A program made the position numbers and the translations under genes. The notes under the pieces are model-generated. The model worked only from the letters and a program-made list of their open reading frames with translations, ran no database searches and was not told the origin of the DNA. A DNA stretch of 64,000 bases from Mesostigma viride (lineage: Eukaryota; Streptophyta; Mesostigmatophyceae; Mesostigmatales; Mesostigmataceae). Positions 1 through 61,072 of the stretch are shown one piece after another; position 1 is the first letter of the stretch, and every line of letters starts with the position of its first letter. Location: assembly GCA_009746045.1 (NCBI GenBank), contig RPFO01000154.1:6457538-6521537 (forward strand), in the 5' to 3' direction.

Positions 1-3000
1 CGCCACCATCGCCCAAGCCGGCTGCCAGGCAGGTGATCATCCAGCCGGTCACGACCAAGAAGCCGGAGAGCCCGACAGCCAGCAAGCCGGCCTTCACCAT
101 TCCTTCCTTATCGTTGCCGGCGCCCGCCAAGGAGCCTGCGAGCCCCACGCCCACGAGCAAGCCTGCCACCCCCATGTTCTCCATCCCTTCCTTCTCCAAA
201 CCAGCCCCCGCAAAGGAGCCCGAGGTCCCCAAGCCGTCGTCACCCTTTGGCATCCCATCACTCCCCGGGATGTCCTCCAAGCCGGCCACCCCCAAGGCCG
301 CCAAGCCTGCGGGTCGCGTATCCGCCGCCGATCTGATCAAGCCGCCGCCCTCCAAGGCCAAGGCGGCCGCAGCGGCAGCCAAGCCCGAGCCGCCCAAGGA
401 ATCTCCCAAGAAGGCGGCTCCCGAGTCCAAGGCGGCCGGCTCTTCGAGCCCGCTCTCGCTCCCCCTCGACGTGACCAAGCTTCCAGGGATGAAGGCGGCC
501 GAGCCCAAGCCGGACCCTGTCAGGGACTCCCTGGAGGCCGCCAAGCAGATGGTGGAGCGGATCCCCGACATCACCGAGCTGCCGGCGGCGGTGCTGGCGA
601 GGAAGGACAAGCAGGCGGCGTCCGGGTCGGGGATCAAGAAGGCGCTGGACGGGGCCAAGTCGGTGCTCAAGCTGCCTGGCGGGGGCAAGGGCAAGGAGGA
701 GAGTGAAGTGATGAAGAGCATCAAGGGCGCGATTATCAGCGTGATTGACGTGGTACGTCGGTGTGCGAGAAGGGAAGAGTCAGGCACATCCTCCCATTCC
801 CCTTGTGGGGGTGCGAACCAATCGAATCATCGTGGAACCTGGGGGTGTCGCCACCAGCAACCCCTGCAAAGCATCAAGTGCAGCACCACACGCTAGTGCA
901 GAGCTTAGTGGTTCGCTGTGGTTGTTGGTGGTCGGTGGTTGCTGTTGGGGGTGGTTGAAGGAGCAGTTCTGGGCAAAGGCAAGGGGTGTGGGTGGTGGGG
1001 GTGGGGGAAGTACGTCGGCAGGGGGTGTTGGTGTATATTCAATGGAATAAGCGATGTGGGGAGTGTTGTGAAAAGGTGGTCGCCTAAATATAGACGGTCG
1101 TAATGTGTAGTGATCATTTACACACGGTGAAGGATGTGCTAAGGGCAGTCTTGGGAAGTTTTGGAATGTGGGTGGGCTGGGGGGAAGTAAATCACCATGT
1201 TTCGGTGATGTTACTGCCAAGCATTCAATGCATATGATGTTACCTCATACATGCCCTTTCCCCCTTCCCTTTCCCCCTTCCCTTTCCCCCTTCCCTTTCC
1301 CCCTTCCCTTTCCCCCTTCCCTTTCCCCCTTCCCTTTCCCCTTCCCTTTCCCCCTTCCCTTTTTCCCTTCCCTTTCCCCCTTCCCTTTCCCCCTTCCCTT
1401 TCCCCCTTCCCTTTCCCCTTCCCTTTCCCCCTTCCCTTTCCCCCTTCCCTTTCCCCCTTCCCTTTCCCCTTCCCTTTCCCCTTCCCTTTCCCCTTCCCTT
1501 TCCCCTTCCCTTGCCCCCTTCCCTTGCCCCTTCCCTTTCCCCCTTCCCTTTCCCCTTCCCTTTCCCCCTTCCCTTTCCCCTTCCCTTTCCCCCTTCCCTT
1601 GCCCCCTTCCCTTGCCCCCTTCCCTTGCCCCCTTCCCTTGCCCCCTTCCCTTGCCCCTTCCCTTGCCCCCTTCCCTTGCCCCCTTCCCTTGCCCCTTCCC
1701 TTGCCCCTTCCCTTGCCCCCTTCCCTTGCCCCCTTCCCTTTCCCCTTCCCTTGCCCCCTTCCCTTGCCCCCTTCCCTTGCCCCTTCCCTTGCCCCCTTCC
1801 CTTGCCCCTTCCCTTGCCCCTTCCCTTGCCCCTTCCCTTGCCCCCTTCCCTTGCCCCTTCCCTTGCCCCCTTCCCTTGCCCCCTTCCCTTGCCCCCTTCC
1901 CTTGCCCCCTTCCCTTGCCCCCTTCCCTGGCCCCCTTCCCTCGCCCCTTCCCTCGCCCCTTCCCTCGCCCCTTCCCTTGCCCCTTCCCTTTGCCCCTTCC
2001 CTGGCCCCCTTCCCTTTCCCCTTCCCTTCCCCTTCCCTTCCCCGCTTTCCTTCCCCGCTTCCCTTCCCCGCTTCCCTTCCCCGCTTCCCTTCCCCCCTTC
2101 CCTTCCCCCCTTCCCTTCCCCCTTCCCATGCCCCCTTCCCATGCCCCTTCCCTTCCCCCTTCCCTGGCCCCTTCCCATGCCCCCTTCCCTGGCCCCTTCC
2201 CTGGCCCCCTTCCCTTGCCCCCTTCCCTTGCCCATTCCCTTGCCCCCTTCCCTTGCCCCCTTCCCTTTCCCCCTTCCCTTACCCTAGCATGCGCAAGGCC
2301 TCCCAACATCGAGATGAATCATCAATCCTCCCAGGCATTGTAATTTCCAATTTCTTTCCGTACTAACTCCCCCTCCCCCTCCACTCCTCTGCCACCCCTC
2401 CCCCTCCCCTCCTCTGCCACCCCTCCCCCTACCCTCTTCCGCCATCCCTCCCCCTCCCCTCCTCTGCGACCCCTCTTCTGCCACCCCCGCCCCCCACACC
2501 GCCGCCCCCGCCCCCTACCTGCCACCTTCTCCGCCCTTTGCCCCCCAGGTGGAGGACAGCGACGACAAGGCGGCACTGGCCCTGAACGTGTTTGCGGCCG
2601 TCCTGAGCCTGCTGCTGCTGCGCGCCATCGTGTCGGTGCGTTTGGAACGACGCGGTCGCGTAGATACGGTACCCCATACATAGCTAGCATAGATAGGGTC
2701 CTGTGGTGTGTGGTATTCCACGGTCATGGGGTGTGTGGTACCCCATATCATGTCCGGTGTTGTGTATGGTTTGTATGTTTTTGTCCATCCTCAGTTTGCT
2801 GATGTGCGCCATCTCTTGGCATGTCGTACTATAATGACAAATTAGTTAGGTAGGTTAGTTAGGTACGGTGGAGGACAATGTAGGTACGGTGGATCACAAA
2901 TGTACTAGATAGTGCTACCACTTGAAGCTTAACCAGGCCACATGCCACGAAACGGTTACATGTCCGGTTAGGCAGTCAGCTCTACCTCGGAATGGCCAAA

Positions 3001-6000
3001 CGTTGTCGCAGGCCTTAGCAGCCCTGTAAATGAGGGGTGGTTGCCTTGGGATGCTATAGCCCTAGGTAAAACAGATAGGGGAGGCAGGTAGAAGCGCATC
3101 TTTAGATACGTGTTGGCACACATCCATACCAAGCCTACGGCTTCGCAAAGTGGGATGGATTGTGAAAATGTTGGCAGTTGGTAGACATTTTTCATGTCAT
3201 GGTTGTCTCACGTACATTCCATGCCATATCTCGTGGTCACCGTACCAAGCGGCACATATCATGTACCAATCGCCGTATCTTGTTAGGCATGATGCATGGG
3301 CAGCGGCAGTTTTTTTTAGTTAATGCTTTGTATATCCTTTTAATGGGCAGCGGCAGCTTCCTGGGAAGCCAAGAGCGCCGCAGGTTATGGCAAATGGGGT
3401 AAGAGGGATAGCCCACATCAGGCATTGGACCGCCAATGCATGTCTCGACCCAAGGATGCCATTCCCGACTCATCTAGCAGCTAGGGGTTGGTCTCCGTAC
3501 GTGTTGAAGCATCCCCCGCTGCAGTGCTCGCAGCTCGCGTACATCTGCTGGCCCTAGCACACTGCTTGCGCACACACTTGCTTGTACACGCGCTGACTAG
3601 ACTACTTTTCTTGTTGTCCCTTGTCTTGCCCTTTGTGCCTTTTTTCTGTCGCCCCTTGGTATTTTGTGCTTCCCCCCCCCCTTGGAATACGACTGTCTCC
3701 GTCCATCCCCGCTTCCTTGCGACCGGCGCCTCTTGACAATCATCGCCGCTCACATTGTCTCCCAATCCTTGCCCAAATCATCACACGCACGCTGCATGGC
3801 TCGTACTCGATGGGGCCAAAATAATGGTCCTTCCACCCGGCACGTAACGGTCCTCCCTCCCGCCGCAAATTACCTCGCACATCGTCGCCCAACCCATCGC
3901 CACCAGACCATCGACAGCTTCCCTGTGCTGCCACTGGCCTTCCAGCTGTTCGGTCTGGGCTACGCTGGGGTACGTGACCGCCAGATTATTCCTGTTTAGC
4001 CATATCACTCATCACCTTCGCAAGCAGAGAGCATGCCTTCCAGCTGTCTGGTCTGGGGGAAGTTGTGGGGGGGTGCATGTCTACCAGGACTCCAGGACTC
4101 CAGCACCAGTAATTTGGTAGTATTTTTTGAATGTAGGAATTTATATCGATCCAGACAGCCAGTACAGCCCTGTCGTTCCGTAAGAGCTTGGCTTTGGGAG
4201 GGCAGCCCCTAGAGTCTGCCAAGCCCATGTGATGGATTTGGAGTGGTGCTCTCATCATTTCTTGCCGGTGGACCTGCTTCAGGCACCCAGGCGCGCTAGT
4301 GAAGAGGGCACATGTTATTTTTTGGGGGGGGGCATTAAAGTAGCCACCAGGCGCGCTAGTTGTATCAGGGTTTAGAGCCATCATTTGGGCCATGCGTTAA
4401 CTATAGCTAGGTGTGACTCTAATAAAGGCTTCCAATTAGCTGCTGGGTTGGCTCGAACCTTGTTGTATGTTCTTGATGACCTCAGCACGTCTTCAATGCG
4501 GTGCGTAGCTTTGTCGATCCTCCTGACAACTGTCACTCACCCATTTCGTTCATGTACCTGCATTCGTCCCTGTGCCTTCTGGCTCTTCTTCCCTTGACCA
4601 TCATGCCATCCATTCATATGTGCCCGTTCATCCACCCATATATGCCCCTATCTATCCTATGCCTCTATCTATCCTCCAAAAATCCTATGCCCCTATCTAT
4701 CCTCCAAATATGGTGCCACTGATCTGCGCCCGGGCACCATGTCGCTGATCCATCCCTCCATCAACCACTGTCGAACGCACACCGTCCATCCTCCACCCAC
4801 CAAACATCGCTGATACCGTGACTTCCGTCCAAGCAGTACTTCTCGTACCAGAACCTGGTGTTCGAGAAGGACCGGTACGTGCAAGCTATTATGTATGTTA
4901 GTATGTTACCATGTTAGTATGCTGGTATGCTAGTATGCTGGTATGCTGGTATGCTAGTATGCTAGTATGCTAGTATGCTAGTATGCTAGTATGCTAGTAT
5001 GCTAGTATGCTAGTATGCTAGTATGCTAGTATGCTAGTATGCTAGTATGCTAGTATGCTAGTATGCTAGTATGCTAGTATGCTAGTATGCTAGTATGCTA
5101 GTATGCTAGTATGCTAGTATGCTAGTATGCTAGTATGCTAGTATGCTAGTATGCTAGTATGCTAGTATGCTAGTATGCTAGTATGCTAGTATGCTAGTAT
5201 GCTAGTATGCTAGTATGCTAGTATGCTAGTATGCTAGTATGCTAGTATGCTAGTATGCTAGTATGCTAGTATGCTAGTATGCTAGTATGCTAGTATGCTA
5301 GTATGCTAGTATGCTAGTATGCTAGTATGCTAGTATGCTAGTATGCTAGTATGCTAGTATGCTAGTATGCTAGTATGCTAGTATGCTAGTATGCTAGTAT
5401 GCTAGTATGCTAGTATGCTAGTATGCTAGTATGCTAGTATGCTAGTATGCTAGTATGCTAGTATGCTAGTATGCTAGTATGTTAGGATATGTGATGTCAG
5501 TATGTTAGCATGTTGATTGTGTTTACGATATCTAGCGGTGGACCTTTTGCGCTGGAACCTGGTGTTCGAGAAGGACCGGTGCATGGGACCCGGTAGACCT
5601 TATATGCTCCACAGTATGTGTATGATGACTAAACGGGAATCAGATTGGGCGGTGGTAGTGGGTGGGTTGACCGGGTGGGGTGGGGTGGGGTGGGGTGGGG
5701 TAGAAGGTGGGCGTAGAGATTATGGGGCGGGTGCGGGTGTAGGTGCGGGAGCGGGGGGGGGGGGGGGGGGGGGAAGGGAGGGGAAGGCGTGTGCGTGCTT
5801 GTGTGTCTTTATCAAGGGAAGGGGGGGTTCTTGATCAATGGGTCCAACACGGGTGGGGCGCAGGAAAATGCTTACGCTCGCTGCTGGTTCCCTGCTGCAA
5901 CCGGTATTGTTTGTGCTACCTCCTGCAAAACGCCCCCCCCTGCAACATGCTAACCCGGGCTGCTGGCTCCTGCTGCTGCTGCAAAATTTTGTTGATGTCC

Positions 6001-6100
6001 CTTGCTACCCTCTTGCAGCAAGGAGCTGTTTGAGAACGCGGAGGAGTTCAAGGATGCCTTTCTGGGCAAGAAGAAGGTGGAGGTCGAGGAGAAGAAGTGA
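1..6100 (+). CDS. CURT1: CURT1-like thylakoid curvature protein (5' partial)
   Basis: Multi-exon gene entering from the left edge. Exons read by hand: <3-752, 2549-2635, 3907-3969, 4837-4874 and 6019-6100 (stop TGA). All junctions are GT-AG and keep one frame, giving 339 visible residues. The first exon encodes a long Pro/Ala/Lys-rich region, then ISVIDVV. Later exons encode the CURT1/CAAD core: VEDSDDKAALALNVFAAV and LLLLRAIVS (membrane segment 1), DSFPVLPLAFQLFGLGYAG, YFSYQNLVFEKDR (segment 2 and its exit), and RKELFENAEEFKDAFLGKKK (amphipathic tail). Spacing matches plant CURT1 (…LVGLGYTGWFVYRYLLF…RKEL) residue for residue across the last two junctions. The family oligomerises at grana margins and bends thylakoid membranes. 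Seen: exons, frame, membrane segments. Known: family role. Inferred: plastid targeting, since the transit peptide would lie upstream of the window. Donors of introns 1, 3 and 4 are GTACGT. The long Pro-rich N-terminus is unusual for CURT1 and may be lineage-specific. Confidence 0.85.
1251..2290 (+). repeat. Polypyrimidine minisatellite in CURT1 intron 1
   Basis: About 1 kb of 11-12 bp units such as ccctttccccctt, drifting to cccttgccccctt and then cccttccccgctt. One strand is almost pure C/T, so it stays open in several frames and gives false ORFs of 258-391 codons. Mirror-symmetric purine/pyrimidine DNA of this kind can form triplex (H-DNA) structures. It lies upstream of the exon-2 acceptor. 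Confidence 0.97.
2364..2548 (+). repeat. C/T-rich repeats leading into CURT1 exon 2
   Basis: Degenerate units of about 24 bp (cctctgccacccctcccc) run into the real polypyrimidine tract and the AG at 2547-2548. They look like iterations of the acceptor region (ctgccaccttctccgccc). Confidence 0.75.
2636..3906 (+). other. CURT1 intron 2
   Basis: 1271-bp intron, GTGCGT donor and CCAG acceptor. It holds a few short direct repeats near the donor (ggtaccccata twice) and no coding signal or mobile element that I recognise. Confidence 0.7.
4035..4057 (+). other. Degraded copy of CURT1 exon-3 end
   Basis: Matches exon 3 at 3937-3959 except for a two-base change (ttcgg to tctgg). It lies 66 bp after the true donor. 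In the copy the GTACGT donor is replaced, so it cannot serve as the same splice site. Confidence 0.85.
4909..5490 (+). repeat. (GCTAGTAT)n octanucleotide array in CURT1 intron 4
   Basis: About 70 copies of an 8-bp unit. The first few vary (gctggtat); from about 4957 to 5480 the array is essentially perfect, implying very recent expansion. It is bracketed by two identical 25-bp copies of the exon-4 end (4851-4875 and 5555-5579). Confidence 0.98.
5555..5579 (+). other. Second copy of CURT1 exon-4 end
   Basis: 25 bp identical to 4851-4875, coding N-L-V-F-E-K-D-R. A GTGCAT follows where the real exon has GTACGT. No phase-0 acceptor precedes it, so it is probably a dead duplicate rather than an alternative exon. 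Confidence 0.85.
5666..5776 (+). repeat. G-rich tract
   Basis: Repeats of ggggt followed by an uninterrupted G run near 5753-5773, within CURT1 intron 4. The exact length may be affected by sequencing. Confidence 0.85.
5886..6018 (+). other. Iterated acceptor-like motifs before CURT1 exon 5
   Basis: Four degenerate motifs of the form cctgctgcaa / cctcctgcaa / ccctgcaaca / gctgctgcaa precede the real acceptor ctcttgcag at 6011-6018. They look like decayed duplicates of the 3' splice region. Confidence 0.55.
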
Positions 6101-11608: not shown

Positions 11609-14600
11609 TTAAGACCGGCCCATCTCCACCGTGCGCAGCAGGTCCTCCACTTTGGCAATCACCTCGTGGATGTACGGCCGCCGCGTGCGGTCCGTGTCCA
11701 CCATCCACGTGACCAGGTCATGCATCGCCGCAGGGTACTTCTTGGCCGGGCTGGGCGGCCAGGTGATGTTGCCGTTGATGGCGGCCAGCGCGAGCGAGCC
11801 GCCGGCCTCGCCCAGGGAGAACTCAAAGGGGGACACCATGTACCTGGGGGGGGCCAGGATAGGGAACACAGGATAGGTAACAGTATATAGGGTACAGTCA
11901 TTCACGCCTTAAGTTGGATTGGATTAAGTTGTGTTCAAGCCATAAGTTGGGTCGAATAGGATTTCGGCGTTCTAAGTTCAAAGTAGTTCACAATAGTATG
12001 TTTTCGCATCTCAAGGTCAAATTAGTAGAATTTAGTACAGTCATTCACGCCTTAAGTTGGGTTCACGCCATAAGCTGTGTTGACCCCTCAAAAACCTCGA
12101 ACCCAACTTAAGGCGTGAATGACTGTAACAGGTGGACAGTTCGCATAATGGGGAGAGGGGGACACCAATGCCTGGGGGGGGAAGGATAGGCAACATAGAG
12201 CCGAGTACGTAGAGTAACAGTATGTAGAGTAACAGGTAGCCGACTGTTAGCATAAAGGGGACAGGGAGACACCATGAACCTGGCGGGCAGGGTTGGGGGG
12301 TGAGGGAAGAGAAACAGAGAGATGACATGAGCCATATGCTGTATCAGGACGGGAGGTAACACCTTGCAGCTGGGGGCAAGCTAGGGGGTGGGGACAAGTG
12401 GAAGCTATGTACCTGGTAAGAAAACAAACAGGAAGAAGACATCCATCTGCCTGGGGGGCAAGGATAGGGAGCAGACAGCCAAGAGTTAAGAGTATCAGGT
12501 AGATTAAGGCTTACAGGGGAAGAAAGGGATACCATCATACCAGGGTTTTGGGTTGGGGGCTGGGGGAAGAGAAGAAAAGAGCTGGGAATACATATGTTGA
12601 GTATAGGGTAGAGGAGAAGACATGAAGGGGAAACGGGGCACCGTGTCCCAGGGGTGTATAATAAGGAAAGAGAAACAAAAGCCGCAATCATATTCCATAT
12701 TTAATACGAAAGGGGGGCACCCTGTTCCTGGGGGTTACAAGAAGGAAAGCGAAAAGAAAGCCGCAATCCATATTTCCTATTTGACAAGAAAGGTGGGCAC
12801 GCTGTCCCTGACGGGCAAGAAGCGGGAAGTGAGCCGCGCACTAGTAATGACAGAAAACAAAACACAGAAGACACGTCGCGTGTTTTCAACCATGCACTTA
12901 CTAGCTACAGTGCATGGTCACTTTACACTCACCCTCCCATCATGCACGTGCGCACTTACATCATGGCGTAGAGGGTGCAACCCAGTGCCCAGGTATCTGT
13001 CCGCTCGTCCACCACGCACTCGCTGGGACAGTCCCACAGCTCTGGCGCGCGGTAGGGGGCGGAGCAGTTGCTGCTCGCCCACTCCTGCAGGGGACAAAGG
13101 CATAAAGAATATGACAGGAAGAATACGAGATAACAGGGTAAGGAGTAAGGAGCCAAAGAGCAGCTGCGACACCGCATTAACACCGCATTACCCCCACCCA
13201 GCTGCAGCGCCATTCCATCCATGCGCGACTGTTCAGTTATATCAATGTCCAATGAAGCTCTAGAACACACCGTGCAAACACAGCGCAAACACAGCGCATG
13301 CTACCGCAAACACAGCGCATGCTACCGCAAACACAGCGCATGCTACCGCAAACACAGCGCATGCTACCGCAAACACAGCGCATGCTACCGCAAACACAGC
13401 GCATGCTACCACAAACACAGCGCATGCTACAGCAAACACAGCGCATGCTACCGCAAACACAGCGCATGCTACAGTGACCACTGAGCAAACACAGCGCATG
13501 CTACAGTGACCACTGAGCAAACACAGCGCATGCTACAGCAAACACTGTGCAAACACAGCGCATGCTACAGTGACCACCCCACCCACCTGCAGCGCGATCG
13601 CGTCCATGCGCGACTGCACAATGCGCTTCGCGGGCCCTGCCGATCCAAAGTCCATCAACACGGCAATCGGCTGCTGGTTGGGCGCCGCGCTGATGAGCTC
13701 GCTGATGTCAGCGGGGAGCGGCCGGTTGGAGGGCGCCCCCAGCAGGATGTTGTGGGGTTTGACGTCGTTGTGGCAGTACGGTGGGTCGGACTTGTGCATG
13801 GCCAGCAAGCCACGGGACACCTGGCGACGCGACAGTTGGCGCGTGTAGAAGTGGCAAGTGGGGAGATCAGGTGGGTGGGCACGAGGATGGGTGGGTGGGA
13901 TGAGTACATGGGCAGGAAAGCATGATGTATCAAATGGGTGGGTGGGTGGGTGGGTGGGTGGGTGGGTGGGCGGGCGGGCGGGCGGGCGGGCGAGCGGGCC
14001 GGCGGGTAGGCGGGCGCGGGCGGGCGGGCGGGCGGGCGGGCTAGGGCGGGCTAGGGCGGGCGGGCGGGCGGGCGGGCGGGCGGGCGGGCGGGTGGGCGGG
14101 TGGGTGGGTGGGTGGGTAGGTGGGTGGGTTGGGTTGGGGTGGTGGGGTGGGGTGGTGGGTTGGTAGGGCCGGCAGGCAGGGGGGCTGATGGGCGGGTAGG
14201 CATGTGGGTGGGCAGGCAGGTACGTGTCGGTATGTGGGTTTATGGGATCCTACCTCCTATACCTGCCCCACCTGCATAGTTATACCACATGGTTAGTTGC
14301 ATCTCGTAAGGTCCTTCCCCCTAAACCATGAGCTGCAACCGCTACTGCATTGCAGCAACAGGTCACCCAACCCAAGCAACAGGAGCACCCATCCCACTCA
14401 TTCCAGCAAAACATGCCCGACACAAACCCACGCCCACCTCCAGCAACAAGAGCACGTGTCCTACCCACCTCCAGCAGCAGGAGCACTTGTCCAACCCACC
14501 TCCAGCAACAGGAGCGCCGGTCCTACTCACCTCCAGCAGGATGAGCAGCACCATGGTGGGTGAGAAGCGGTCGCCCGATGCCGCCATCTGCGACAGCGCC

Positions 14601-17151
14601 TCCTGCAGGCGAAGGATCCATTGAGTAAACAAGGGAAGTCGCGACAGTATCAGTAAATAAACACTACTAATTGATTAATTAATACAATTAGGTAGAATAC
14701 ATCATAAACAGATAGAAAAAATCATCTACAACTACCCCGTCATCATTTGGCACAATGGCTCCTATGGGGCGGAAAGCCAACGATTGACAAGTGGCTAGGC
14801 TACGTAGGCTTTGCAAGGGGCAGCAGTCGCCTTAGTTCCATGGTTCCACGAGGACTATGCAGTCTGAGAAGCACACAGGGTATCCACGAGACGTTGCCAG
14901 GATGCTACCTAGCCTGCCACCAACAAGCCCGCCACCAACAAGCCCGCCACCAACAAGCCTGCCACCAACAAGCCTGCCACCAACAAGGCTGCCACCAACG
15001 AGCCTGCCACCAGCGAGCCTGCCACCAACGAGCCTGCCACCAACAAGCCTGCCACCAACAAGCCTGCCACCAACGAGCCTGCCACCAACAAGCCTGACAC
15101 CAACAAGCCCGCCACCAGCGAGCCTGCCACCAGCGAGCCTGCCACCAATGAGCCTGCCACCAACAAGATGGAATCCGGCACCGCGGCGTTCCCTGCCAAC
15201 TTAGCGTGCTCATTACTTCTACCCGCCACAAGACAGACACAGGGCACGGCAGGCACGCGGGCACCAGCAGAAAGCGGGCAGAGTGAAGGTGGACCGCCCG
15301 CGGCAAGGGGTCGCATGCATCCGTTCTAGGGGCACTGTTGACATGCGGGCGCAAGCAAATAGCGGCCACGCGGGGGGCACATCGAAATAAGTGATAGATG
15401 ATAGAATATAAATAACAGTAATAGAGGCCACCGTTGCCAGGGCGCACCTGCAGGGTCCCGTTCCTCATCAGCGGGAAGAGCAGGTAGGCCTCCTCCACTT
15501 TCTCCTGGCCCTGTCGCGGTGGGGAAAGAGCCGTGTGCGTTACCGCGCATGAAAGAAGAAGTCAAGCATGAAAAGCCATGGATGGATAAGCGTGTAAGCA
15601 GGGGGGGCACGGAAAGCACACGGGAGCACGAGGAAACAGCGAGACATATGTGAAGTGAGAGAACTATTATTCTGATTTGGCATGCCGCAAAGGTGAAAAC
15701 CATTTGCGTTCAGTGCCGGTCCGCTATGTGTATATTAAAAATTATGATTATTTACATCAGAGTACAGGCACCTAATTAACCATAAACAAAGCCAACGCTA
15801 ACAAGAGATACCTGTATGTGTATACACTACTTTTTAAACAGTGGAATAATATATTTAGTAGTACAACAACGTACGTATCATTACAATGATGACGTTGTTT
15901 TGTAAATGTAGTATTGTATATTGCATTGTATTGTATTGTATGTATGATACGTGTTACTCTTATGATTGATTCTTGCCGAGACAACGTGGTCCATTAAACA
16001 AGGTGCATCGGATTCAAACAAGAAACTATGATAAATACCATGAGCGCAAATAAAGATTCATCAAGCGGATGATGTCTAACGGCCATCATTAATCACATCG
16101 GTCAAGTTTGCCGTCTGGCTGCATAAGTGTTACTCATGTATACACATTGGAGAAATCTATGTTTAACCATTAATCAAGTTTGCTAACACCTACCAATACA
16201 TGGAAAATCGTACCAATCTCGGAGAGATGCTCGTTTGCTATACAATGCTTGGGGAGGGAAGGCGCCTGGCAACATGGCCTGCAGCTCGCTGGCTGATGTC
16301 ATAGCGAAATGTGCTATCAGCAAGAAATATGGGTACGGTGGCACACAGGGATGACCCTAACAGAGGATGATACGCATGCCCCACTGTCTCACAATGACGA
16401 ATGTGATGGCATTGATGGGCGTCCAACCAACGGACACCTGATGGCTGGACGGTGGGCTGTGCAGTACTGAGAATGGCCTCGACAAAGGGAACAGACGGGA
16501 AAATGGAGGTTTTACGTGTGACATTGTAAGAAGTTCTTTGAGCCTCCCGCTGCCGGTTAGCATGTCAAAGAGGAAGACGCAGATAATTTAGTTAATGCTC
16601 ACTACGAACTTACAGGAGCAGCACCGATAGCATAGTCCAGCAGCGGAAGCAGGTTGGGGTCGCTAAAGCGTTGCATAGCCAGCACTTCTGCCTTGACCTC
16701 CTGCATCTGTTCATGTGATTGGATGGTGATTTTTTTGAGAGCGTACTCCTTTTGCTCTGCAAGACCAAGAGCAAGCCAGGCAGCATATTGCAACTTCCGT
16801 CATATAGAGCCACCGCACTGGCCATTCCTAAGCGTGTGACATAGTAGACCCACTCGAGGCCGGATTACACGACAAAAAGAAATTTTTCCTGACATATGGC
16901 CCCTTGCAGTTAACCAACATATGGCACCTTGCAGTTAACCATGCTGAGCGTGTGTAGGTCTGCACGCGAGCATAACCGCATCACTTACCACCAGGATCCA
17001 CATTGCCGACCTGCTTTACCAAATACACGTAGGAAAAGCCTCCCTCTCCAAGTAACTCCTTCACGACGTATCGTTTCCCACTGATAGTGATCTCTTCGTA
17101 AGGCATCATCGCGCTGACTAGTGACCGCCATATTGACAAACCGCACCCCAT
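11609..17151 (-). CDS. STK16: STK16/MPSK1-like Ser/Thr kinase (NAK family)
   Basis: Seven exons on the minus strand: 17151-16989, 16756-16614, 15510-15448, 14602-14531, 13820-13587, 13084-12960 and 11843-11609. All are GT-AG and sum to 1035 nt (344 aa). Visible motifs: N-terminal MGCGLS, fitting Gly2 myristoylation and Cys3 palmitoylation as in STK16; glycine loop GEGGFSYV (35-42); YALKK with Lys62; Glu78; catalytic loop HNDVKPHN (164-171, Asp166); DFG (204-206); APE (238-240); DERTDTWALGC with Asp255. HND instead of HRD is what I recall for plant homologues. In animals this kinase sits at Golgi membranes through acylation. I chose the start at MGC because the motif fits; an in-frame ATG lies 13 codons upstream (17190). 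The C-terminal LGEAGGSLALA segment also follows the plant type. Substrates cannot be read from sequence. The introns are packed with junction duplicates and minisatellites, annotated separately. Confidence 0.92.
12150..12825 (-). repeat. Eight decayed copies of the STK16 exon-7 acceptor region
   Basis: The true intron-6/exon-7 junction (plus strand 11828-11866, ggacaccatgtacctgggg) recurs at about 12156, 12257, 12392, 12435, 12526, 12626, 12708 and 12789. Each copy keeps a gacacca…cctgggg core. In transcript sense this is …ccccagg + (t)acatggtgtcc, an AG acceptor plus the first codons. Spacing is about 40-110 bp and identity drops with distance from the real exon. Confidence 0.8.
13193..13230 (-). 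other. Copy of STK16 exon-5 end with a dead donor
   Basis: Closely matches the real exon end (13581-13620), coding SRMDGMALQ against SRMDAIALQ. The donor after CTGCAG reads CTGGG instead of GTGGG. It lies at the far side of the minisatellite 13270-13580, so the array is bracketed by the exon end and its copy. Confidence 0.85.
13270..13580 (+). repeat. 20-bp minisatellite in STK16 intron 5
   Basis: About 13 units of gcaaacacagcgcatgctac, some followed by agtgaccactga. The array starts within a few bases of the exon-5 donor. Confidence 0.95.
13935..14165 (+). repeat. (GGGT/GGGC)n tract in STK16 intron 4
   Basis: Tetranucleotide GGGT, shifting to GGGC and back to GGGT. Runs of three G every 4 bp on this strand would support G-quadruplexes on the non-template side of the kinase gene. 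Confidence 0.95.
14434..14523 (-). repeat. Three tandem copies of the STK16 exon-4 end
   Basis: Units of about 30 bp (cccacctccagcaacaggag) directly follow the true exon-4 donor (14525-14545, actcacctccagcaggatga). In transcript sense each unit keeps a CTGGAG+GTGGG donor-like junction, so three cryptic donors lie within 100 bp of the real one. Confidence 0.85.
14917..15175 (+). repeat. 15-bp minisatellite in STK16 intron 3
   Basis: About 16 units of gcctgccaccaacaa with single-base variants (cgagc, ccgcc). Confidence 0.95.
15662..15717 (-). mobile_element. SINE2 3'-end fragment
   Basis: ttctgatttggcatgccgca… is the reverse complement of the 3' end of the element seen whole at 23336-23460. 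It is 5'-truncated and lies in STK16 intron 2. No clear TSD. Confidence 0.7.
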
Positions 17152-20637: not shown

Positions 20638-21034
20638 GATCCAGCCGGTCCACGACCTGTTTGTAGAGCTTGTGCCAAGGGGCAGCACCGAACAAATGTG
20701 GGTGATCGACGTTGCAAAAAACACCGGACTTGACGGAGCATAATGTCTCGGTCATAGTCTTTGACCAACAAAGGATGCAAGAGTTCAACAAGAGTCGTGA
20801 TGAAATCGACACGATAAGAACAAAGACGAGAAAAACGATGTAACTGACTAAGAACAACTCCATATTTTGCTGTGTGGGAAAGGAGACTGTGAATATCGGG
20901 GTAACGAATGAAAGGAATTTGCATGGCTAAATTCTTAATGCAACATCCATGGGAGGTCCCATTATAGGCATGGCTTGGCTAAATTCTGAAGGCATCATCC
21001 ATGGGGGCCATTATGGGCGCACATGCGCGTGGGC

Positions 21035-35100: not shown

Positions 35101-35168
35101 GGGATGGATGGATGGATGGATGGATGGATGGATGGATGGATGGATGGATGGATGGATGGATGGATGTT
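35101..35168 (+). repeat. (GATG)n tract
   Basis: About 16 GATG/GGAT units directly after the GGGA tract. A few gatg units also start that tract (34323-34332), so the GGGA array has grown inside a GATG array. Confidence 0.97.
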
Positions 35169-41779: not shown

Positions 41780-41971
41780 TTAAGTATGCAATGTAGGACC
41801 AAACTATGTGCTATAATTCTGGCATACATGAGCCAAAACACCGTTTTAGTGCATTATTTTCAAACTTATGAAGCCCCTGCCAGCACATATGCGGCCCAAT
41901 CATGCCAGAATTCGTCACATTAATAGCACAATACTTGAATTTACACTAGAACACAAGTTGGACATATTAGG

Positions 41972-42621: not shown

Positions 42622-42628
42622 TATTAGG

Positions 42629-46287: not shown

Positions 46288-46655
46288 ATCAAGGAGACAA
46301 CCAGCGCAGGCCAGAAATCGGGAGAATCCGGACCATGGTAGCTCAAGCCTGCCGTTATCTCAGTGTCCGCGTTTTCGAGTCGTTCAGGATGATGAATATG
46401 AATGGAGATGGAAATGTGTAGCTACTAAGCCTCAAGTGTGCATTGAAATTATGGCTGGCTTACGTGTAGAGCGACTAGATGACCTAGACGGTGGGGCCGG
46501 AAACAGCTTGCTTGATCAGGGCGTGTGTTTCGAGCCTAACTGGCCGGGAGTGTCTAGTGGTGAGCACCATGCATGGCTGCGATCGCTCTCCCACCATTTA
46601 CGAGGAAATACCCGCAAATGGAAAACCACTGAAAAGGTCTAGCTAGTCAGTCATG
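46288..46655 (-). mobile_element. SINE1, near full length
   Basis: About 365 bp, from tcaaggagacaaccagcgca to ctagctagtcagtcat. It matches 60549-60913 throughout. No TSD found. Confidence 0.85.
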
Positions 46656-50200: not shown

Positions 50201-53200
50201 CTAGTTGGGCCCTGGCCACTCCACGTGGTACACGCCCAGGGAGGCGTCCTTGTGCACGAAGAAGCTCGCGCTCACGACCACGTACGCGAACACAAACATA
50301 AGGCCCTTGAGCCAGTTGGACAAGCCGTCCTGCACACACATCAAGGGGAGGGGGAAACAGTCGGTGCAGACGATAGTCAGAATAAGGGGCTGAGAGACCG
50401 GGAAAAAATACCAGAGAAGGCCAAGAGAAAGGATTTGTGGCAGTACTGCCCAGGTCACCTTGATGGAATGGGCCATGCCTCCAGCAGCCTGCCTGCAGCC
50501 ATGCGGCGGTGGCCAGCTAGACGGGTCGAGTCCTTTCGTCAGTACATAAAGAACTATGACAGGCCTGTGCCAGTTGTCCCATTGATAACTCTTTAGGGAC
50601 AAAAAGTGCCTGCATGTCGCAGCTAGCTACAGGGTTTTGATGCCTAGGCACATGTCAGTGCCTACCTGCACGTGTGCATGTGGCTAGTTCTCACCTGCAG
50701 CAGCCGAGCCCAAGTGAACACAACATTTTCACTAGCCACCCTTCTTTGTTCTTTTTTTTCTTTTTATTTCCTCGCGAAGGCCTAGCATGGTCGGCGAAGC
50801 CGTAGCAAGGTCTGCAACAGGTGCGAATGGGGGCCCTATCCTCGCTACTCCCGCCCGTCCTATCGCACGCGCTCACCTGCAGCAGCACGGCCACGGTGAG
50901 CACCGAGGTGAACATGGTCGCGGTCTCGAACAGGTGGAAGTTGAGGTCCAGCGGACGGCCCCACGCCCACGCGAGCACGACGCAGAACGGGATCTGTATG
51001 ATGGCAGGGTACAGTGGAACAGGGTAGGAAGGGTAAGAGGGGAAAGAGGGGTGAGAGGAACACATGTGTGTGCGGTGGGCAACCAAGCACGGCGCAGATC
51101 GGGATGTGTGGGGTGGCAGAGTACAGGGGGGGAGTCGGTGCAGGGCACAGGGGCAAGAGACGAATGGACACTTTCGCAACACAGCACCAAGAGAACCAGT
51201 GCCCCAGCTCAATTAAACACGTGTTCTACACGGCAGAAAACCAAAAACAACCACACCTGCATTATTCTGTCATAAACCTGCACAAGGTAGCCTCTGCCAG
51301 GGGCGACATGACAGAGTACGAGCACTACGGTTTCTTTTGCAGGGCAACGATGTTGCAACGAGTGGTCAACACCATCGCCCCGGGACCGCACTCACCACCA
51401 GCAGGGAGATCTGCGTAGCAGAGCCGACGGCCACACCGATGGAGATGTCCTGTGGTGGCAACAGAGATGAAGAAGAATCCAGGCATGAGAACAAAATCAT
51501 GATACCAAAATGTCAGCGTCAGACAACATCTTCACATTACTAATGTCAACAGGCAAAGTCAACCATTCCAAAAAAGGAAACAGTACAGAGGAAATCAAAT
51601 AATCAACCCTCCCTTCTCCTCCACAAACCCCCCGTCTCCTGCCTCAGCCACCACACCCCCTCACATATCAACCACTACTACATATCAACCACTACTTCCC
51701 CTAGACAACCCCTCCTCATCCCCTCCTTTTGGCACACACCAGCACGTTGCACACGGCGACTGTTTTAGGCCACCCACCCCAAAGAAAAACCCATCCCTTG
51801 TCCTGTCCCAACCACGAAATCCTACATCCAGCGCTCTTCTCCGCCCCCTTCCACCTAGCAACTCATTGAGCACGTCCTACACCCCACCCCACCCCACCCC
51901 ACCCCACCCCACCCCACCCCACCCCACCCCACCCCACCCCACCCCACCCCACCCCACCCCACCCCACCCCACCCCACCCCACCCACCCCACCCCACCCCA
52001 CCCCACCCCACCCCACCCCACCCCACCCCACCCCACCCCAATCACTTGGCCCCCCCCCGCATCTACTGTCAACAACGAATACCCCTCACGAATGCTAGTC
52101 TCCCACCCACCAGCTTGTTGCGTACAGCAAGACCATGCCACCCCCCCCGCCACCCTCCTACCGACTGACAACATTCCCCCCGATGACCCACCAGCTTGTT
52201 GCGCACGGCGAACATGATCGCGCTGGCGTGCTCGGCGGCATTGCCCACGATGGGCAGGATGATGACGGAGATGAAGGAGACCGGCACGTTCCAGGTGGAG
52301 GACGCGCCCTCGATCGCGTCCACCAGGTACTCGGACAGCACGCTGATGAAGATGGTGAACACGCCCAGCCACGCGACCGCGCCCCAAAAGCCCAGCACGG
52401 GGTCCTCGTCATCGCCCTCATCATTGTCCTCCTCTTGCTGATGGTGGTGGTGTTGGGGGGGGGGGGGGGACATTGGGCATCGATTTACGAGCATAGAGGT
52501 GATCAGATGTCCGCCGTCGTCCTCCTCTTGCAGGTGTTGGGGGGTTGGGGGGATACGGGGCAAACACAACGGAAGAGCACAAACGCGCAAGTTTGATGGG
52601 ATTGGCAAGCCGTTGTCCTCCTCTTGCTGGAGTGGCAAAGCGTGGGAGGGGGCCAAGGGCACAAACACGCGAAATAAAGGCATGGATAGGTTGACTCACT
52701 GTCGTCCTCTTCCATTGTTGTGCTGTGCTGTGCTGTGCTGTGCTGTGCTGTGCTGTGTTGTGCTGTGCTGTGCTGTGCTGTGCTGTGCTGTGCTGTGCTG
52801 TGCTGTGCTGTGCTGTGCTGTGCTGTGCTGTGCTGTGCTGTGCTGTGCTGTGCTGTGCTGTGCTGTGCTGTGCTGTGCTGTGCTGTGCTGCGCTGCGCTG
52901 CGCTGCGCGGTGCAGTGCAGTGCAGTGCCGTGCAGTGCAGTGTCGTGTGATGGTGTGGCGTGGCGTGACGCGCATGAATGCGCCCGACGAGAGACATGAA
53001 CAAACAAGATGTGTTGATAAAAGCCCGTGAAGGGGGGAGGGGGGGGGGGGGGGGGGAAAGGACTATGGTGGCGAGGCGACGCGACCCCAACCCTCCCAAC
53101 GTACACATTCGTAGAGGTCCTTGTGGCTCATCAGCTGGAAGTAGAGGTAGCAGATGTACGCGAGCAGCATGATGCACGAGGAGAAGCGGGAGAGCGCCAG

Positions 53201-56200
53201 CTCGGACGCCCCGTCGTGCAGCTCCGTGTGCGTCGTGTGCAGCACCGCGGGGAGCAGGAGCGCCATCACCGCCAGGAGGAGCAGGCCCGCGTTCGTCATC
53301 CCGGCCGTCTGGGGTCGTTTGATAGGCACGGTAGAGAGAGGCGAGGATCGAGGGGAAGCACACACCGTGGATGGTCAGGTGGACAATGAGGCATGAAGAC
53401 GGTGGTACCCGGATCCAAAGACATGTGTGCACCCAAAAGACATGGATATGGAATGTATCGCCACCATGGATAGTAATGGAGGGAGTAACACTGGATGGAG
53501 CCCAGCACCCAAACGCACAAGGGTGGACGTTGGAAGGAGCAAAAAGAGCGACGGTAAAAGGGAGGCGGGGGGGGGGGAAGGGGGGGGGGGAGAGATGCAA
53601 CATGTGAAACCTGTATTACTAGCACATACCACATGCCTGCCAGGGGTGGCAGGGGGCACCAAAAGGGGCAATCGGTGAGCATCCTTGCTACCGACCAGGC
53701 CTTCTTGTTTCTCCATTTCAGCCTACCCTGCAGGACAGTACCTCTGCTACTATCGTTGCTGACAGCCCCACCTAGTATTCTAATTGACTGCTGGAAGCTT
53801 CCAATGAGATTACTAATGAATATTCCCAGCCGCACCCGGATTGTTGAGCAACCTTGTGTCAACTTCCTGCCTCAGGCACACGACGTTGCTGTCCATTACT
53901 GGCCGCAGCCACCTAGTTCAACTTCTGCTCCTCCAAAGAGGAACACTGTCGTGGATTCCCGGCCCCGCCACCCACCTTGTTGAACTTCTGCTCCTTGTGC
54001 TTGAACCCCCCGATGAGGAACGCGCACCCGAGCACAAGCAGCATGTTGGAGAGCACCGAGCCGAGCAGTGAGAGCTGCACCACGCGCAGCAGCTCGGTGC
54101 GTATCGCAAACACGGCGATGATCATCTCGGTCGCATTGCCAAAGGTCGCGTTCAGCAGGCCGCCCACTGTGATTGGTCACACAAGGGAACGACCATACAG
54201 TCATGATCAGGGAGAGGTCAGTGAATGACATAGAATTATCTCAGTAGTGTTGCCACAGATCGCGTTCAGCAGGCCGCAAATTGCTCGCAGGAGGGACATA
54301 ACAAGGTCTAAGGTGAAGAAATAGGAGAGCGATGCGCGAGAGCTTCCAATACCGCCATGGCCAAAAGTCGCGTTCAACAGGCTGCCCACTGGCGATTGGC
54401 TTAATAGACAAGGAGCATATGAACAAACATAGACTAGCAACTAAATCTAGCATAATTAATTTCTCTCACGCAAAGTTCAACCAGACAACAGGTCAATACA
54501 CCACTGTAACAACACCCTACCAGCCCAGGGCGCAGTACAGCTGACCGCCTGATCGGGGAACATTAGTAGACCAATTGTCTGCAACGGATAGAACTTCGTA
54601 ATCAGCTACCGATTACATCCAACTAGCAAATGGCATGTACTTCCCTGCCACTGCGTACAAATACTATCTGTCGATGAGACAACCAGCGCAGGCATGGCAC
54701 TACAATACTATAGTGACCATGGTATCAATCAGACAACCAGCGCAGGCATGGCACTACTATACTGTAGTGACCATGGTATCAATCAGACAACCAGCGCAGG
54801 CATGGCACAACTACACTATAGTGACCATGGTATCCATCAGACAACCAGCGCAGGCCAGAGATCTGTCTTAACTATGAAATATGTCTATGTTATCTACATT
54901 TTATCTAGCCCTTGCACTGCTGCTGTTTTGGGGGAATACCTATGGTGTGAACTTAAACACCCCAACAGAACAAATGGATCGATAATACCAAGCCACCATA
55001 GCTTAGACATATTAGGCGCCCCGGCCATAAACAGTGAGATGTCACGCCCACATCAGGCACGCACCTGTCGCGTTTGTGTAGATTGCCATTTGTCTGCATG
55101 GGGAATCCCCACAACAGAAGCAGCCCACGCACAGCAGCAATCAAGAGAGGGTCAGTAAAGGCACCAGCTTAAGAGGCCTTAGAACAGCACAATCACTCCC
55201 TCTGCTCAGTCTTCGTCCTTGACAGATCACCCTAAAAAGCCTCTCGCACAAAACATCCTCACATTGAATTGCCATCTCCTCACTTAGCCCTAGCCATTTG
55301 CAGCAAGGGCAAGTTAGCCTTTTGCTTCCAAGTCCACGGCTTGCGCAACTCCAAGACTTGAACACATCTCTTAAAAATGTCTTCTTAGTACTCATAACAG
55401 CATCCCCATCTTGTTTCCAGTAGAAGTATCAAAACCCTGACATTTTATCCCTACAGCCATAGTCCCTGAACCCTCCACCAACTTGTATGCAGACTCAACG
55501 CAGCTTGCCATCATCTGCAAGCCAGATGAGAGCACGACATGTCCTTGTGTGTCACAATTGACTCCCCGTTTCAAGTAACATCAATAGAGCCCCCCGTCCT
55601 TGCTTGCAACTCGGTGAAGTATCTGATAAGACATCAACCGCTTCCCAAGATGGCTACTTATGAAATTTTATGTAAATACGATCAGAGCTGAACCCTTCAT
55701 TCTCTCATGCCTCAGGCACTCACTCGGTCACATATCCCAGGCGCTCTGCAAGAGGCGCGATGCCCATCAAACTGAACGTGAAGATCCAGCCCTGCAGGGG
55801 GGAGGGGGAGGGGTGACAGAGAGGTAGATCAAAGCAACGGGGGGGGGGGGGGGGGGGGGGGGGGGCTGTATCAGTCTACCCATTGATGTCAGGAAAGAAA
55901 CACACCACCCCCTGCTATCTCCATCTTATCTCCATAAACCTGAACGAGTCCGCACACAGCTAGCACGGAGGCAGGCTTGATCCTGACTAGACCATGGTAT
56001 GGATTATCATCCTGTCAAGCCCATACTGTGGCTGTCTCATCCATAACAACAATGGTATGATAAGTTTTTCCTGCAGAGATCCCTAAATTGCCCACTCCAT
56101 ACACACTGCAAAGTGTCAATGCCACTAGTTCAAACGCCATGCCAACTTGAAAACTGCGGAACATCTCATCATCTCTTTCAACCTCCCAACAAAGCACAGG

Positions 56201-57128
56201 GCGTGCACAACCAAAGCGAGTGCTTGTTAAAGCACCCGGATCAAGTGACATACTTGAAGAAGGTGCGCAGTGCATGCTGCTGTAACCAGTGTCTGCCAAA
56301 TGTCGTTGTAAACTAACTCAACAATGAAGGATTTCATGACGACCAAGGAAGCCTTCCATGAAACAAACATGACATATATTGGGGACATGCATTTGCTTGT
56401 GAAATAGGAGCAATGCCCAAGTTAGAACCATCGTACACCCCTGAACATGATCTAACCACTTTCGAAACACCTGCCATGCAGTGGGAACTATTTCGAAAAG
56501 GACTAGGCTTCACAATAGCCACCCCTCAAGGGTCAGTTGGCCCAGACCCAGGAGACTATACCCGAACAGGACGATGGAATCTAGATTGTCGCCAGATCAG
56601 AAAGCTACAAACGTGAAAACCCTAGCGGCCTAAATCTGAGATTCCGCGGAACACAGGAAGTAAGAGAGCCCAGAAGCTACCAGCAATCGCAAGCATCTAC
56701 AGCACAAATAAAACCATCATCCTCCCATGCAAATAGGCATACCTGCACTACAGGAGAAAACATCGAACCACCACGCATGCATGCATTTGCATGGGAGGAG
56801 GCCTACTAAGCCGGCCTAACAAAGCAGGAGGCCTAGGGCGCCGTGACTAAGGCCAGGCGCTTTTTGGCATCGAGCGAAACGTTATTTCCTATAACAATGA
56901 GCACCAGATAATTACCTCGCTCCAGTTCAGCGCATTCGCGGCTATAGCGGCCGGAATGCAGGGTAGCAAAAGGTTGAGCTTAGTACTGAAGAAGAGCTCC
57001 CGAAGACTGCTTTCCCAGTATGCTCCCCATCCGTTCTCCAGAACACTCTTAATCCGAGATGACTTCTTAGAGTCCATTTCATCATCCCCCATTTCAATCC
57101 CGAACGACGCGCTCGTTTTCACCTCCAT
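50201..57128 (-). CDS. CAX: CAX-type vacuolar Ca2+/H+ exchanger
   Basis: Nine coding exons: 57128-56916, 55792-55725, 55093-55065, 54166-53976, 53308-53105, 52437-52192, 51449-51396, 50993-50877 and 50329-50201. Total 1251 nt, 416 aa, all GT-AG and in frame. Landmarks: [38 protein letters not shown], repeat c-1 [13 protein letters not shown] (105-117), [36 protein letters not shown], acidic loop [11 protein letters not shown] (237-247), [12 protein letters not shown], repeat c-2 [32 protein letters not shown], and C-terminal [18 protein letters not shown]. These follow plant CAX2/yeast VCX1 closely. The family moves Ca2+ (often Mn2+) into the vacuole against H+; the c-1 and c-2 Glu/Asn residues line the pathway. 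The start at 57128 is the first ATG of the exon; an upstream leader exon cannot be excluded. The N-terminus ([20 protein letters not shown]) may be the autoinhibitory region seen in plant CAX. Confidence 0.94.
50688..50722 (-). other. Copy of CAX exon-8 end
   Basis: ctcacctgcagcagccgag… aagtgaacac against the real exon end ctcacctgcagcagcacgg … cggtgagcac at 50872-50910. Donor GTGAG preserved. Confidence 0.8.
51082..51130 (-). other. Copy of CAX exon-8 start and its acceptor
   Basis: aagcacggcgcagatcggga … ggtggcagagtacag mirrors agcacgacgcagaacgggat … gatggcagggtacag at 50974-51013, about 80% identical over 44 bp. Confidence 0.8.
51878..52040 (+). repeat. (CCCCA)n array in CAX intron 6
   Basis: About 32 perfect CCCCA units with one slip (cccaccc) near 51980. 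Telomere-like in composition but not a known algal telomere unit. Confidence 0.97.
52101..52139 (-). other. Copy of CAX exon-6 end
   Basis: cccaccagcttgttgcgtac against cccaccagcttgttgcgcac at 52187-52206. The GTGGGT donor is intact in the copy. The CCCCA array lies just beyond it. Confidence 0.88.
52511..52720 (-). repeat. Three copies of CAX exon-6 start
   Basis: gtcctcctcttgc (transcript sense gcaagaggaggac) at 52519-52531, 52615-52627 and, weaker, 52704-52716. The true acceptor/exon start is at 52426-52440. Copies keep the QEED coding, giving QEEDDGG, QEEDNG and MEEDDS in short frames. Confidence 0.8.
52716..52970 (+). repeat. (GCTGT)n array in CAX intron 5
   Basis: About 35 GCTGT units, drifting to GCTGC, GCAGT and GTCGT at the right edge. 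It directly abuts the last exon-6-start copy. The reverse reads STAQH repeats. Confidence 0.97.
53909..53938 (-). other. Copy of CAX exon-4 end
   Basis: ccacctagttcaacttctgc … tcc against ccaccttgttgaacttctgc … tcc at 53972-54000. Donor GT changed to CT in the copy. Confidence 0.85.
54241..54405 (-). other. Two copies of CAX exon-4 start
   Basis: Transcript-sense reading gives [17 protein letters not shown] (about 54241-54290) and [14 protein letters not shown] (about 54355-54395) against the real [17 protein letters not shown]. The second copy keeps its CAG acceptor. Both carry changes in the conserved GNATE motif, so they cannot replace the exon. Confidence 0.88.
54670..54866 (+). repeat. 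Tandem SINE1-end repeats in CAX intron 3
   Basis: gagacaaccagcgcaggc starts four times (about 54677, 54732, 54788, 54840) at 54-56-bp intervals, separated by atggcactac…tatagtgaccatggta. A SINE1 terminus that became a short tandem repeat. Confidence 0.85.
55065..55093 (-). other. CAX: 29-nt microexon of CAX
   Basis: Between TGCAG and GTGCGTGCC. It supplies the end of Glu94, then QMAIYTNAT, then the first base of Val104. Without it, exons 3 and 4 do not join in frame and the conserved TEQ(L/M)A..T..TVGG stretch is missing. Automated predictors often miss exons this short. Confidence 0.93.
55838..55866 (+). repeat. Poly-G run
   Basis: About 27 consecutive G in CAX intron 2. The length is unreliable in any assembly. 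Confidence 0.85.
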
Positions 57129-60500: not shown

Positions 60501-61072
60501 ACTCAGATGACAAAAGAGGCGGCGGCAGATCTCATGGGATATCAATGAGACAACCAGCGCAGGCCAGAAATCGGGAGAATCCGGACCATGGTAGCTCGAG
60601 CCTGCCGTTATCTTGTCCGCGTTTTCGAGTCGTTCAGGATGATGAATATGAATGGAGATGGAAATGTGTAGCCTTGTGCATTGAAATTATGGCTGGCTTA
60701 CGTGTAGAGCGACTAGATGACCTAGACGGTGGGGGCGGAAACAGCTTGCTTGATCAGGGCGTGTGTTTCGAGCCTAACTTCCCGGGAGTGTCTAGTGGTG
60801 AGCACCATGGCTGCGATCGCTCTCCCACCATTTACGATGAAATACCCGCAAATGGAAAACCACTGAAAAGGTCTAGCTAGTCAGTCATTGTAACAAAAGC
60901 GTAAACGTTAGCCAGATCTCATGGGATATCAATGATACAAATCATGGGTCATATACTGGTGCTCGTCAAAGGGCGACTTGTTGTTTATTGCGGAACAGTG
61001 GAGTCAGTCGCATGGTACCGCAAGTGGGTTGAGAGCGTGCTGCGGGCAAAGTATGGTGACCACTGGAGCTGA
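57546..61072 (+). CDS. Unidentified multi-exon gene or pseudogene
   Basis: Scattered coding-like blocks. 57546-57721: MFRLLAKSFVERSNHTRCVH, rich in Arg/Ser/Ala and resembling a mitochondrial presequence, followed by a GTACGA donor. About 58640-58750: DLEDIDDVQLKTVVRSPLDN and NADQLSKPRW. 58757-58980: MAMEYWMNKWYLDGEGILSS, then a membrane segment GGWIVALIVLTVCCGGVIL. 59909-59956: FDIPYIRYQLPFDELSI, then GTACGA. About 60020-60260: GFRWTGMRTRNITFMHEPPP, HVVRIAIQHWGPRDTQPF and TEPDLLSLQFTSASIEAVLA. 60400-60525: GVFHVKRIGDRGGFV. 60950-61072: ILVLVKGRLVVYCGTVESVA … RAKYGDHWS and a stop. A full frame could not be assembled; SINE1 sits at 60549-60913. I recognise no family. A decayed gene is possible. 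Confidence 0.35.
59080..59908 (+). repeat. Degraded acceptor-exon repeats before the FDIPYIRYQ exon
   Basis: Motif (t)gcag…gcatccca/gacatccc recurs near 59120, 59245, 59390, 59475, 59648, 59702 and 59750, each after gtgtgggtttctttgatggg-like sequence, before ttttagtttgacatccccta at 59900. Same behaviour as the STK16 exon-7 copies. Confidence 0.55.
60549..60913 (-). mobile_element. SINE1, full copy with 22-bp TSD
   Basis: 365 bp between two perfect 22-bp direct repeats (60527-60548 and 60914-60935; begins agatctcatggg, ends atatcaatga). In the orientation suggested by truncated copies, the RNA 3' end is …ctggttgtc, and the target reads tcattgata, close to the consensus element end tccttgata. 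No strong tRNA-like boxes were found. This is the best-defined SINE1 copy. Confidence 0.92.

Follow-up and report, generated by a model that had tools for sequence, protein, structure and literature searches.

Direct copies of splice-junction edges within adjoining introns of three Mesostigma viride genes

Edges of exons recur as direct copies within the introns that they border in three genes of Mesostigma viride, and these duplicated junction edges exceed chance. Almost one in three exon edges of these genes is affected, which suggests that the introns grow here by local copying that favors splice junctions. Mesostigma is described as being among the earliest-diverging streptophyte lineages, and the accessible part of its genome paper describes introns of 1141.9 bp on average, attributes 30.1% of intron space to repetitive elements, and ties the long introns to such elements, with junction copies not mentioned in that part (PMC6947507). 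Small local duplications would be a second process of intron growth beside repetitive elements, archived by the conserved exon edges.

Results

The window, a stretch of 64,000 nucleotides, includes three genes whose exons were modeled with in-frame GT-AG introns as a requirement, i.e., CURT1, an STK16-like kinase gene at 11609..17151 (called STK16 after a first-pass annotation of this DNA), and CAX (Table 1). The sample thus consists of 18 introns and 36 junctions from a single assembly. CAX is the only one of the three with an independent gene model; our version (416 residues) is identical to the public Mesostigma viride model P0001 (482 aa) at 100% of positions with 100% query coverage. The public model has two more 5′ exons, both of which were located in the window, and the corresponding two introns have copies at none of their 4 junctions, for an overall count of 11/40.

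Table 1. Gene models and junction copies in the window
Feature	Position	Strand	Details
CURT1 (CAAD domain), 5 exons	1..6100	+	In-frame GT-AG model; Pfam CAAD 3.7e-19
CURT1 exons	1-752, 2549-2635, 3907-3969, 4837-4874, 6019-6100	+	5′ end outside window
CURT1 exon 3 donor-edge copy	4035..4068	+	27/34; 65 bp inside intron 3
CURT1 exon 4 donor copy	5555..5585	+	29/31; GT kept; past (GTATGCTA)n array (TRF)
STK16-like kinase, 7 exons	11609..17151	-	In-frame GT-AG model; Pfam Pkinase 3.4e-29
STK16-like kinase exons	17151-16989, 16756-16614, 15510-15448, 14602-14531, 13820-13587, 13084-12960, 11843-11609	-
STK16 exon 4 donor, 31-bp tandem array, 3.4 copies	14433..14538	-	TRF
STK16 exon 5 donor copy	13192..13231	-	35/40; GT decayed to CT; past 21/32-bp minisatellite (TRF)
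STK16 exon 7 acceptor, 9 decayed copies in series	12156..12815	-	Low-threshold search, score at least 20
STK16 exon 7 acceptor, four strong copies	12195-12156, 12297-12263, 12473-12438, 12734-12709	-
CAX (Ca2+/H+ antiporter), 9 exons	50201..57128	-	In-frame GT-AG model; Pfam Na_Ca_ex 6.2e-46
CAX exons 1-5	57128-56916, 55791-55724, 55093-55065, 54166-53976, 53308-53105	-
CAX exons 6-9	52437-52192, 51449-51396, 50993-50877, 50329-50201	-
CAX exon 4 acceptor copy	54356..54399	-	38/44; AG kept
CAX exon 4 5′ edge, second copy	54238..54277	-	34/40; splice position not placed
CAX exon 4 donor copy	53895..53932	-	33/41; GT kept; 63-bp tandem unit
CAX exon 6 acceptor-edge copy	52519..52552	-	30/35; AG decayed to TG; 92-bp tandem unit
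CAX exon 6 acceptor, second copy	52613..52652	-	31/41; AG kept
CAX exon 6 acceptor edge, third copy	52696..52726	-	25/33; AG decayed to TG
CAX exon 6 donor copy	52105..52137	-	28/33; GT kept
CAX exon 6 donor, second copy	51734..51759	-	22/26; GT kept
CAX exon 8 acceptor copy	51086..51129	-	36/44; AG decayed to AC
CAX exon 8 donor copy	50690..50721	-	25/32; GT kept

Each junction was represented by a 40-bp query (30 exon and 10 intron bases) aligned to its own intron, and alignments with a score of at least 34 were considered strong. A strong direct copy was found in the own intron for 11/36 junctions, compared to none in 72 control comparisons with the same introns reversed (36) or reverse complemented (36), for which the highest scores were 26 and 21, respectively. 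When the query was instead aligned to the intron at the opposite end of its exon or to the remaining introns of the same gene, 0/30 and 0/166 comparisons reached this score, and a single one in each set reached at least 28. Pooling all three kinds of controls gives 0/268 comparisons against 11/36 on the own side, in agreement with the claim of the first-pass annotation that the repeats go beyond chance microhomology. Evaluated junction by junction, 16/36 junctions reached a P value of at most 0.05 against shuffles and 14/36 did so against other introns. Chance microhomology was ruled out by the reversed, reverse-complement, shuffle, and other-intron controls taken together.

A search for all copies at a cutoff score of at least 30, with a control set twice as large, returned 19 copies at 12 junctions and none in the controls. 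One of them, an exon-internal match with a score of 30 on the acceptor side of STK16 exon 5, was excluded. The other 18 copies belong to 11 junctions, of which 7 are donors and 4 are acceptors, namely, the donors of CURT1 exons 3 and 4, the donors of STK16 exons 4 and 5, the acceptor of STK16 exon 7, and both ends of CAX exons 4, 6, and 8. These correspond to 11 of the 12 junctions named in the first-pass annotation; the twelfth, at CURT1 exon 5, dropped out with an own score of 17 versus 17.1 for shuffles, its only duplicate being an intron-only one that ends 42 bp upstream. In STK16 intron 6, the exon 7 acceptor was represented by 9 copies once the threshold was lowered to a score of at least 20, versus 0 in each of two controls. 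The wider statement that every gene of the window is affected holds for CURT1, STK16, and CAX and is no more than suggestive for a further putative gene, whose acceptor at 59914 scored 26 versus 20 for the reversed sequence. In that region, 3 of 4 direct matches lie within 59126-59695, and the reversed control gave 6 matches there (both triangles counted); the two ORFs of this putative gene had no Pfam match, and its exons are our own proposal.

After arrays were masked, self-BLAST of the 18 intron segments yielded 24 direct matches and 1 inverted match, compared to 5 in the reversed control (halved count). Fifteen of the direct matches reach an exon edge and nine are confined to the intron, six of the latter being in STK16 intron 6. 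As for inverted junction copies, no strong match occurred among the 36 reverse-complement comparisons. Local inverted matches were seen in 11/1239 intron windows.

All 18 copies are in direct orientation, in the same gene and on the same side as the junction that they resemble. Their exon portion spans 12 to 40 bp, as found with a query held to at most 45 exon bases; unrestricted banded alignment gave a longer portion at just two exons, namely, CAX exon 4 (43 bp) and CURT1 exon 3, the latter with a weak 46/67 stretch across the whole 63-bp exon. Intron homology extends alongside the exon part in several copies, e.g., over 36/55 intron positions at the CAX exon 8 acceptor, and anchored extension past the copy core reached a P value of at most 0.05 in 3/14 pairs, all within STK16 intron 6. 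Identity is 83% for the pooled copies and 76 to 94% for single ones, with only the CURT1 exon 4 donor copy (1/18) above 90%, so the notion of an ongoing process is weakly supported. Identity was also said to fall with distance, for which the 18 copies give no indication (Spearman +0.32, P = 0.20).

The splice position could be placed in 17/18 copies, and the GT or AG dinucleotide is kept in 12 of these 17, compared to a neutral expectation of 0.69 calculated from 83% identity. Since the dinucleotide survives at the neutral rate, the copies appear to be neither retained nor eliminated as splice sites. The cryptic splice sites with which the first-pass annotation saw introns littered are, at the sequence level, candidate sites by inheritance and not by selection.

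Contiguous tandem arrays were found at 3/11 junctions, i.e., STK16 exon 4 (31 bp), the CAX exon 4 donor (63 bp), and the CAX exon 6 acceptor (about 93 bp). The STK16 array is plainly tandem, overlaps the final 8 bp of exon 4, and includes its donor. At 8/11 junctions, the nearest copy lies beyond at least 20 bp of nonarray, nonhomologous sequence, and for two of these eight, an expanded array fills most of the interval; it is an (GTATGCTA)n repeat for CURT1 (intron 4) and a minisatellite for STK16 (intron 5). Nearest copies are 31 to 182 bp away at 8/11 junctions and 328, 385, and 704 bp away at the remaining three. Arrays constitute 27% of the intron sequence of the three genes. Positive (11) and negative (25) junctions did not differ in GC content, G/C runs, intron length, intron GC, or exon length, the smallest P value being 0.12. 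Slippage driven by G/C runs was likewise not supported (4.18 runs at positive versus 2.64 at negative junctions; P = 0.31).

Because conserved exons make old junction copies easier to spot than intron-only ones, we simulated uniform duplication. The base simulation combined uniform tandem duplications, frozen exons, drifting introns, and length-balancing deletions, with parameters of our own choosing, and its variants covered unit lengths, rates, old bursts, small indels, and 30 to 50% foreign intron sequence, for a total of 768 runs (288 base, 224 with small indels and a quiet period, and 256 with 30 to 50% foreign intron sequence). The real values to be matched were 11/36 junctions and 20/160 junction windows (.125), together with local direct duplicates in 69 of about 1239 intron windows (.056; score of at least 36; 0 in reversed controls and 11 inverted) and in 9/313 exon windows (.029). 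Some of the 69 duplicated intron windows are junction copies themselves. At least 11 positive junctions combined with an intron-window fraction of at most.056 were obtained in 1/768 uniform runs, and a three-way match that includes the exon fraction, as checked for the foreign-sequence set, was obtained in 0/256. Taken singly, the quantities can be reached under the uniform model, with at least 11 junctions in some settings and a junction/intron ratio above 2 in others. Uniform settings near the real junction count produce too many long exon copies, the exon fraction averaging about.06 to.19 versus the real.029.

We also simulated a 3- to 6-fold excess of duplication at junctions with the exon part capped at 45 bp, both the cap and the range having been picked after the data were seen. 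With hot=3, r=0.012, and no quiet period, the runs averaged 7.7 junctions and window fractions of.119 (junction),.059 (intron), and.030 (exon); with hot=6, the averages were 13.9 junctions and fractions of.193,.079, and.037, respectively. The combination of junction count and low intron-window fraction described above occurred in 14/192 runs with junction excess, and 0/96 no-excess runs of this set attained 11 junctions. Under these models, the junctions thus show a statistical excess of copies, and a 3- to 6-fold excess loosely fits the data better than uniform duplication does, the factor being a rough guide. The first-pass description of the duplications as junction anchored is accordingly supported within a sample of 36 junctions, in that 767/768 uniform runs fall short of the joint values, whereas the fit of the excess model, at 14/192, is loose. 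In the tandem simulations, 26 to 37% of the nearest copies had spacers of at least 20 bp, versus 8/11 in the real data (about 0.02 by a hand binomial estimate). Given this surplus of spaced copies, part of the copying seems to be other than simple head-to-tail duplication.

Discussion

The explanation toward which we lean, with slightly more confidence than doubt, is that neutral local direct duplications, arising from slippage or break repair, are several-fold more common at splice junctions than in intron interiors. Replication slippage or duplication at repaired breaks would generate short, direct, local copies. Where a duplication extends across a donor or an acceptor, the original outer junction would stay in use, and the copy would end up within the intron, free to decay, while the intron lengthens. 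With the exon side of the original conserved, a junction copy would be recognizable for longer than intron-only duplicates. We infer both the origin in slippage or repair and the reading of the excess as a higher duplication rate at junctions. Such a preference over interiors may possibly stem from breaks at exon edges that are linked to transcription, splicing, or the borders of nucleosomes or from RNA-templated repair. The bolder proposal that junctions are true hot spots of transcription- or splicing-linked duplication, at which patches of 25 to 100 bp were repeatedly thrown into the adjacent intron and came to make up a sizeable share of the long introns of this alga, is one that we put forward tentatively and regard as rather unlikely; exon-edge R-loop breaks, nucleosome borders, and RNA-templated repair from nascent pre-mRNA can be named as examples of what it might involve.

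The most serious rival is neutral tandem duplication spread evenly along introns, in which junction copies are merely the ones that remain visible through their conserved exon side. Arrays that fill 27% of the intron sequence and local direct duplicates in intron interiors (69 of about 1239 windows versus 0 reversed) are what such a process would leave, and an old burst, with or without 30 to 50% inserted sequence, can yield a junction/intron ratio above 2. We nevertheless consider it rather unlikely, since only 1/768 simulations combines the junction count with a low intron-window fraction and the settings near that count overpredict long exon copies (about.06 to.19 versus.029). Spacing of the nearest copies at 8/11 junctions would also be expected if splice-site-protected fragments of nascent pre-mRNA were copied back into the same gene during break repair, as would direct orientation on the same side in 18/18 copies, a splice position in 17/18, and 12 to 40 exon bases. 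However, RNA is unnecessary for the three plainly tandem junctions and the footprint idea is our own conjecture, which leaves this RNA-templated reinsertion improbable.

Selection for decoy or alternative splice sites is scarcely to be expected either: GT or AG is kept in 12/17 copies, yet this equals the neutral expectation (0.69), and the public CAX protein is consistent with the outer junctions at all eight modeled CAX introns. Insertion of introners or transposable elements would account for intronic repeats on the coding strand, but the copies resemble the adjoining exon edge only, with 0/166 strong matches (score of at least 34) in other introns of the same gene, and we give this origin very little credence. 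Least plausible of all is an assembly artifact; the region abounds in simple repeats, but the copies are 76 to 94% identical, each junction having its own sequence, whereas misassembly should yield near-identical copies.

Should junctions prove to be hot spots, a single mutational source may underlie the growth of introns, their gain, and cryptic splice sites. If the excess reflects survivorship only, copies of exon edges still clock an intron turnover that is otherwise invisible.

A partial literature search retrieved no description of serial junction copies within introns, which is a weak negative. Introners, as covered in the part of the source consulted (PMC9860276), also place repeats in introns, but they form one family across many introns, whereas each copy in Mesostigma derives from its own exon edge; the same element was not found in many introns here (0/166 other-intron comparisons at a score of at least 34 and 1 at a score of at least 28). 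Direct repeats at intron borders, with a mean of 11.4 bp, are read as insertion scars in the available text of Rogers and Bendich (2025, PMC11782384), where they pair the two intron ends, whereas each Mesostigma copy reproduces a single junction in the interior of the intron that it borders. Tandem duplication at splice-site-like sequence is likewise the basis of intron gain by AGGT tandem genomic duplication, a route that the excerpts consulted present as proposed and documented (PMC3443670; Drosophila cases in PMC2891723). There, the two copies bound a new intron (PMC3443670), whereas the Mesostigma copies lie inside an existing one, the donor copies starting 43 to 680 bp from their own donor and not at the acceptor. 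Nor are these tandem duplications of whole exons, given exon parts of 12 to 40 bp, or 43 bp for CAX exon 4 in the banded alignment, along with a weak 46/67 stretch for CURT1 exon 3.

Two described processes come closer, and the claim of the first-pass annotation that no described mechanism has exactly this signature was too strong. In rice, repaired breaks show duplications that are fully or partly tandem, as well as inserts taken from less than 200 bp away (Vaughn and Bennetzen 2014, as summarized in part of a review, PMC7407515). The Mesostigma copies are similarly short and tandem or local, with 8/11 nearest copies within 200 bp; a junction preference is not mentioned in that part of the review, whereas a junction excess is seen here. 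In human paralogs, minisatellites with units averaging 30 bp can occupy the border between exon and intron and make introns longer, according to the portion seen of De Grassi and Ciccarelli (2009, PMC2812944). Boundary minisatellites are therefore known, and it is the serial, widespread form that was not found described in the partial search. As presented there, the human arrays are recent and variable and belong to duplicated genes, whereas the Mesostigma copies are mostly decayed and spaced and affect 11/36 junctions in three genes. Of the boundary-minisatellite traits, inclusion of the exon edge and the splice position is seen (17/18 copies, with the site intact in 12), and the copies are contiguous at 3/11 junctions and spaced by at least 20 bp at 8/11. 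The STK16 exon 4 array resembles the human ones.

Repeats and retrotransposon-like fragments

Of the five long simple arrays, three are found inside introns whose junctions carry decayed direct copies of their own exon edge: (GTATGCTA)n, (CACCC)n, and (TGTGC)n. In the putative plus-strand gene, decayed repeats spaced roughly 150 to 260 bp apart precede the candidate acceptor, and a Pfam search of this gene returned no match.

The four retrotransposon-like fragments look like non-LTR elements from their sequence. A weak Pfam match to reverse transcriptase (RVT_1, E 2.1e-05, under the family cut-off) was found at 21878-22174; apart from this match, naming was by eye; the Pfam search of the 25299-26669 fragment gave no match. 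Among the dispersed repeats, copies 19654-20005 and 60541-60888 share 95-96% identity. The 265-bp pair is perhaps a recent duplication or the two ends of an element.

Coordinates of repeats, arrays, and putative coding features
Feature	Position	Strand	Remarks
238-bp unit, tandem pair	61242-61719		94% identity
238-bp unit, third copy	62433-62670		89%; about 950 bp farther along
265-bp direct repeat	41962-42226, 42360-42624		98% identity; 398 bp apart
Dispersed repeat, 115-350 bp	19654-20005, 24673-24787, 46288-46650, 60541-60888		families D14 and D16
Long simple arrays (five)	1254-2284, 4893-5485, 34325-35164, 51880-52040, 52719-52942		
Putative gene	58738-60290	+	candidate acceptor at 59914
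Non-LTR retrotransposon-like fragments	20931-22448, 25299-26669, 27169-28864, 48224-49060		named mostly by eye
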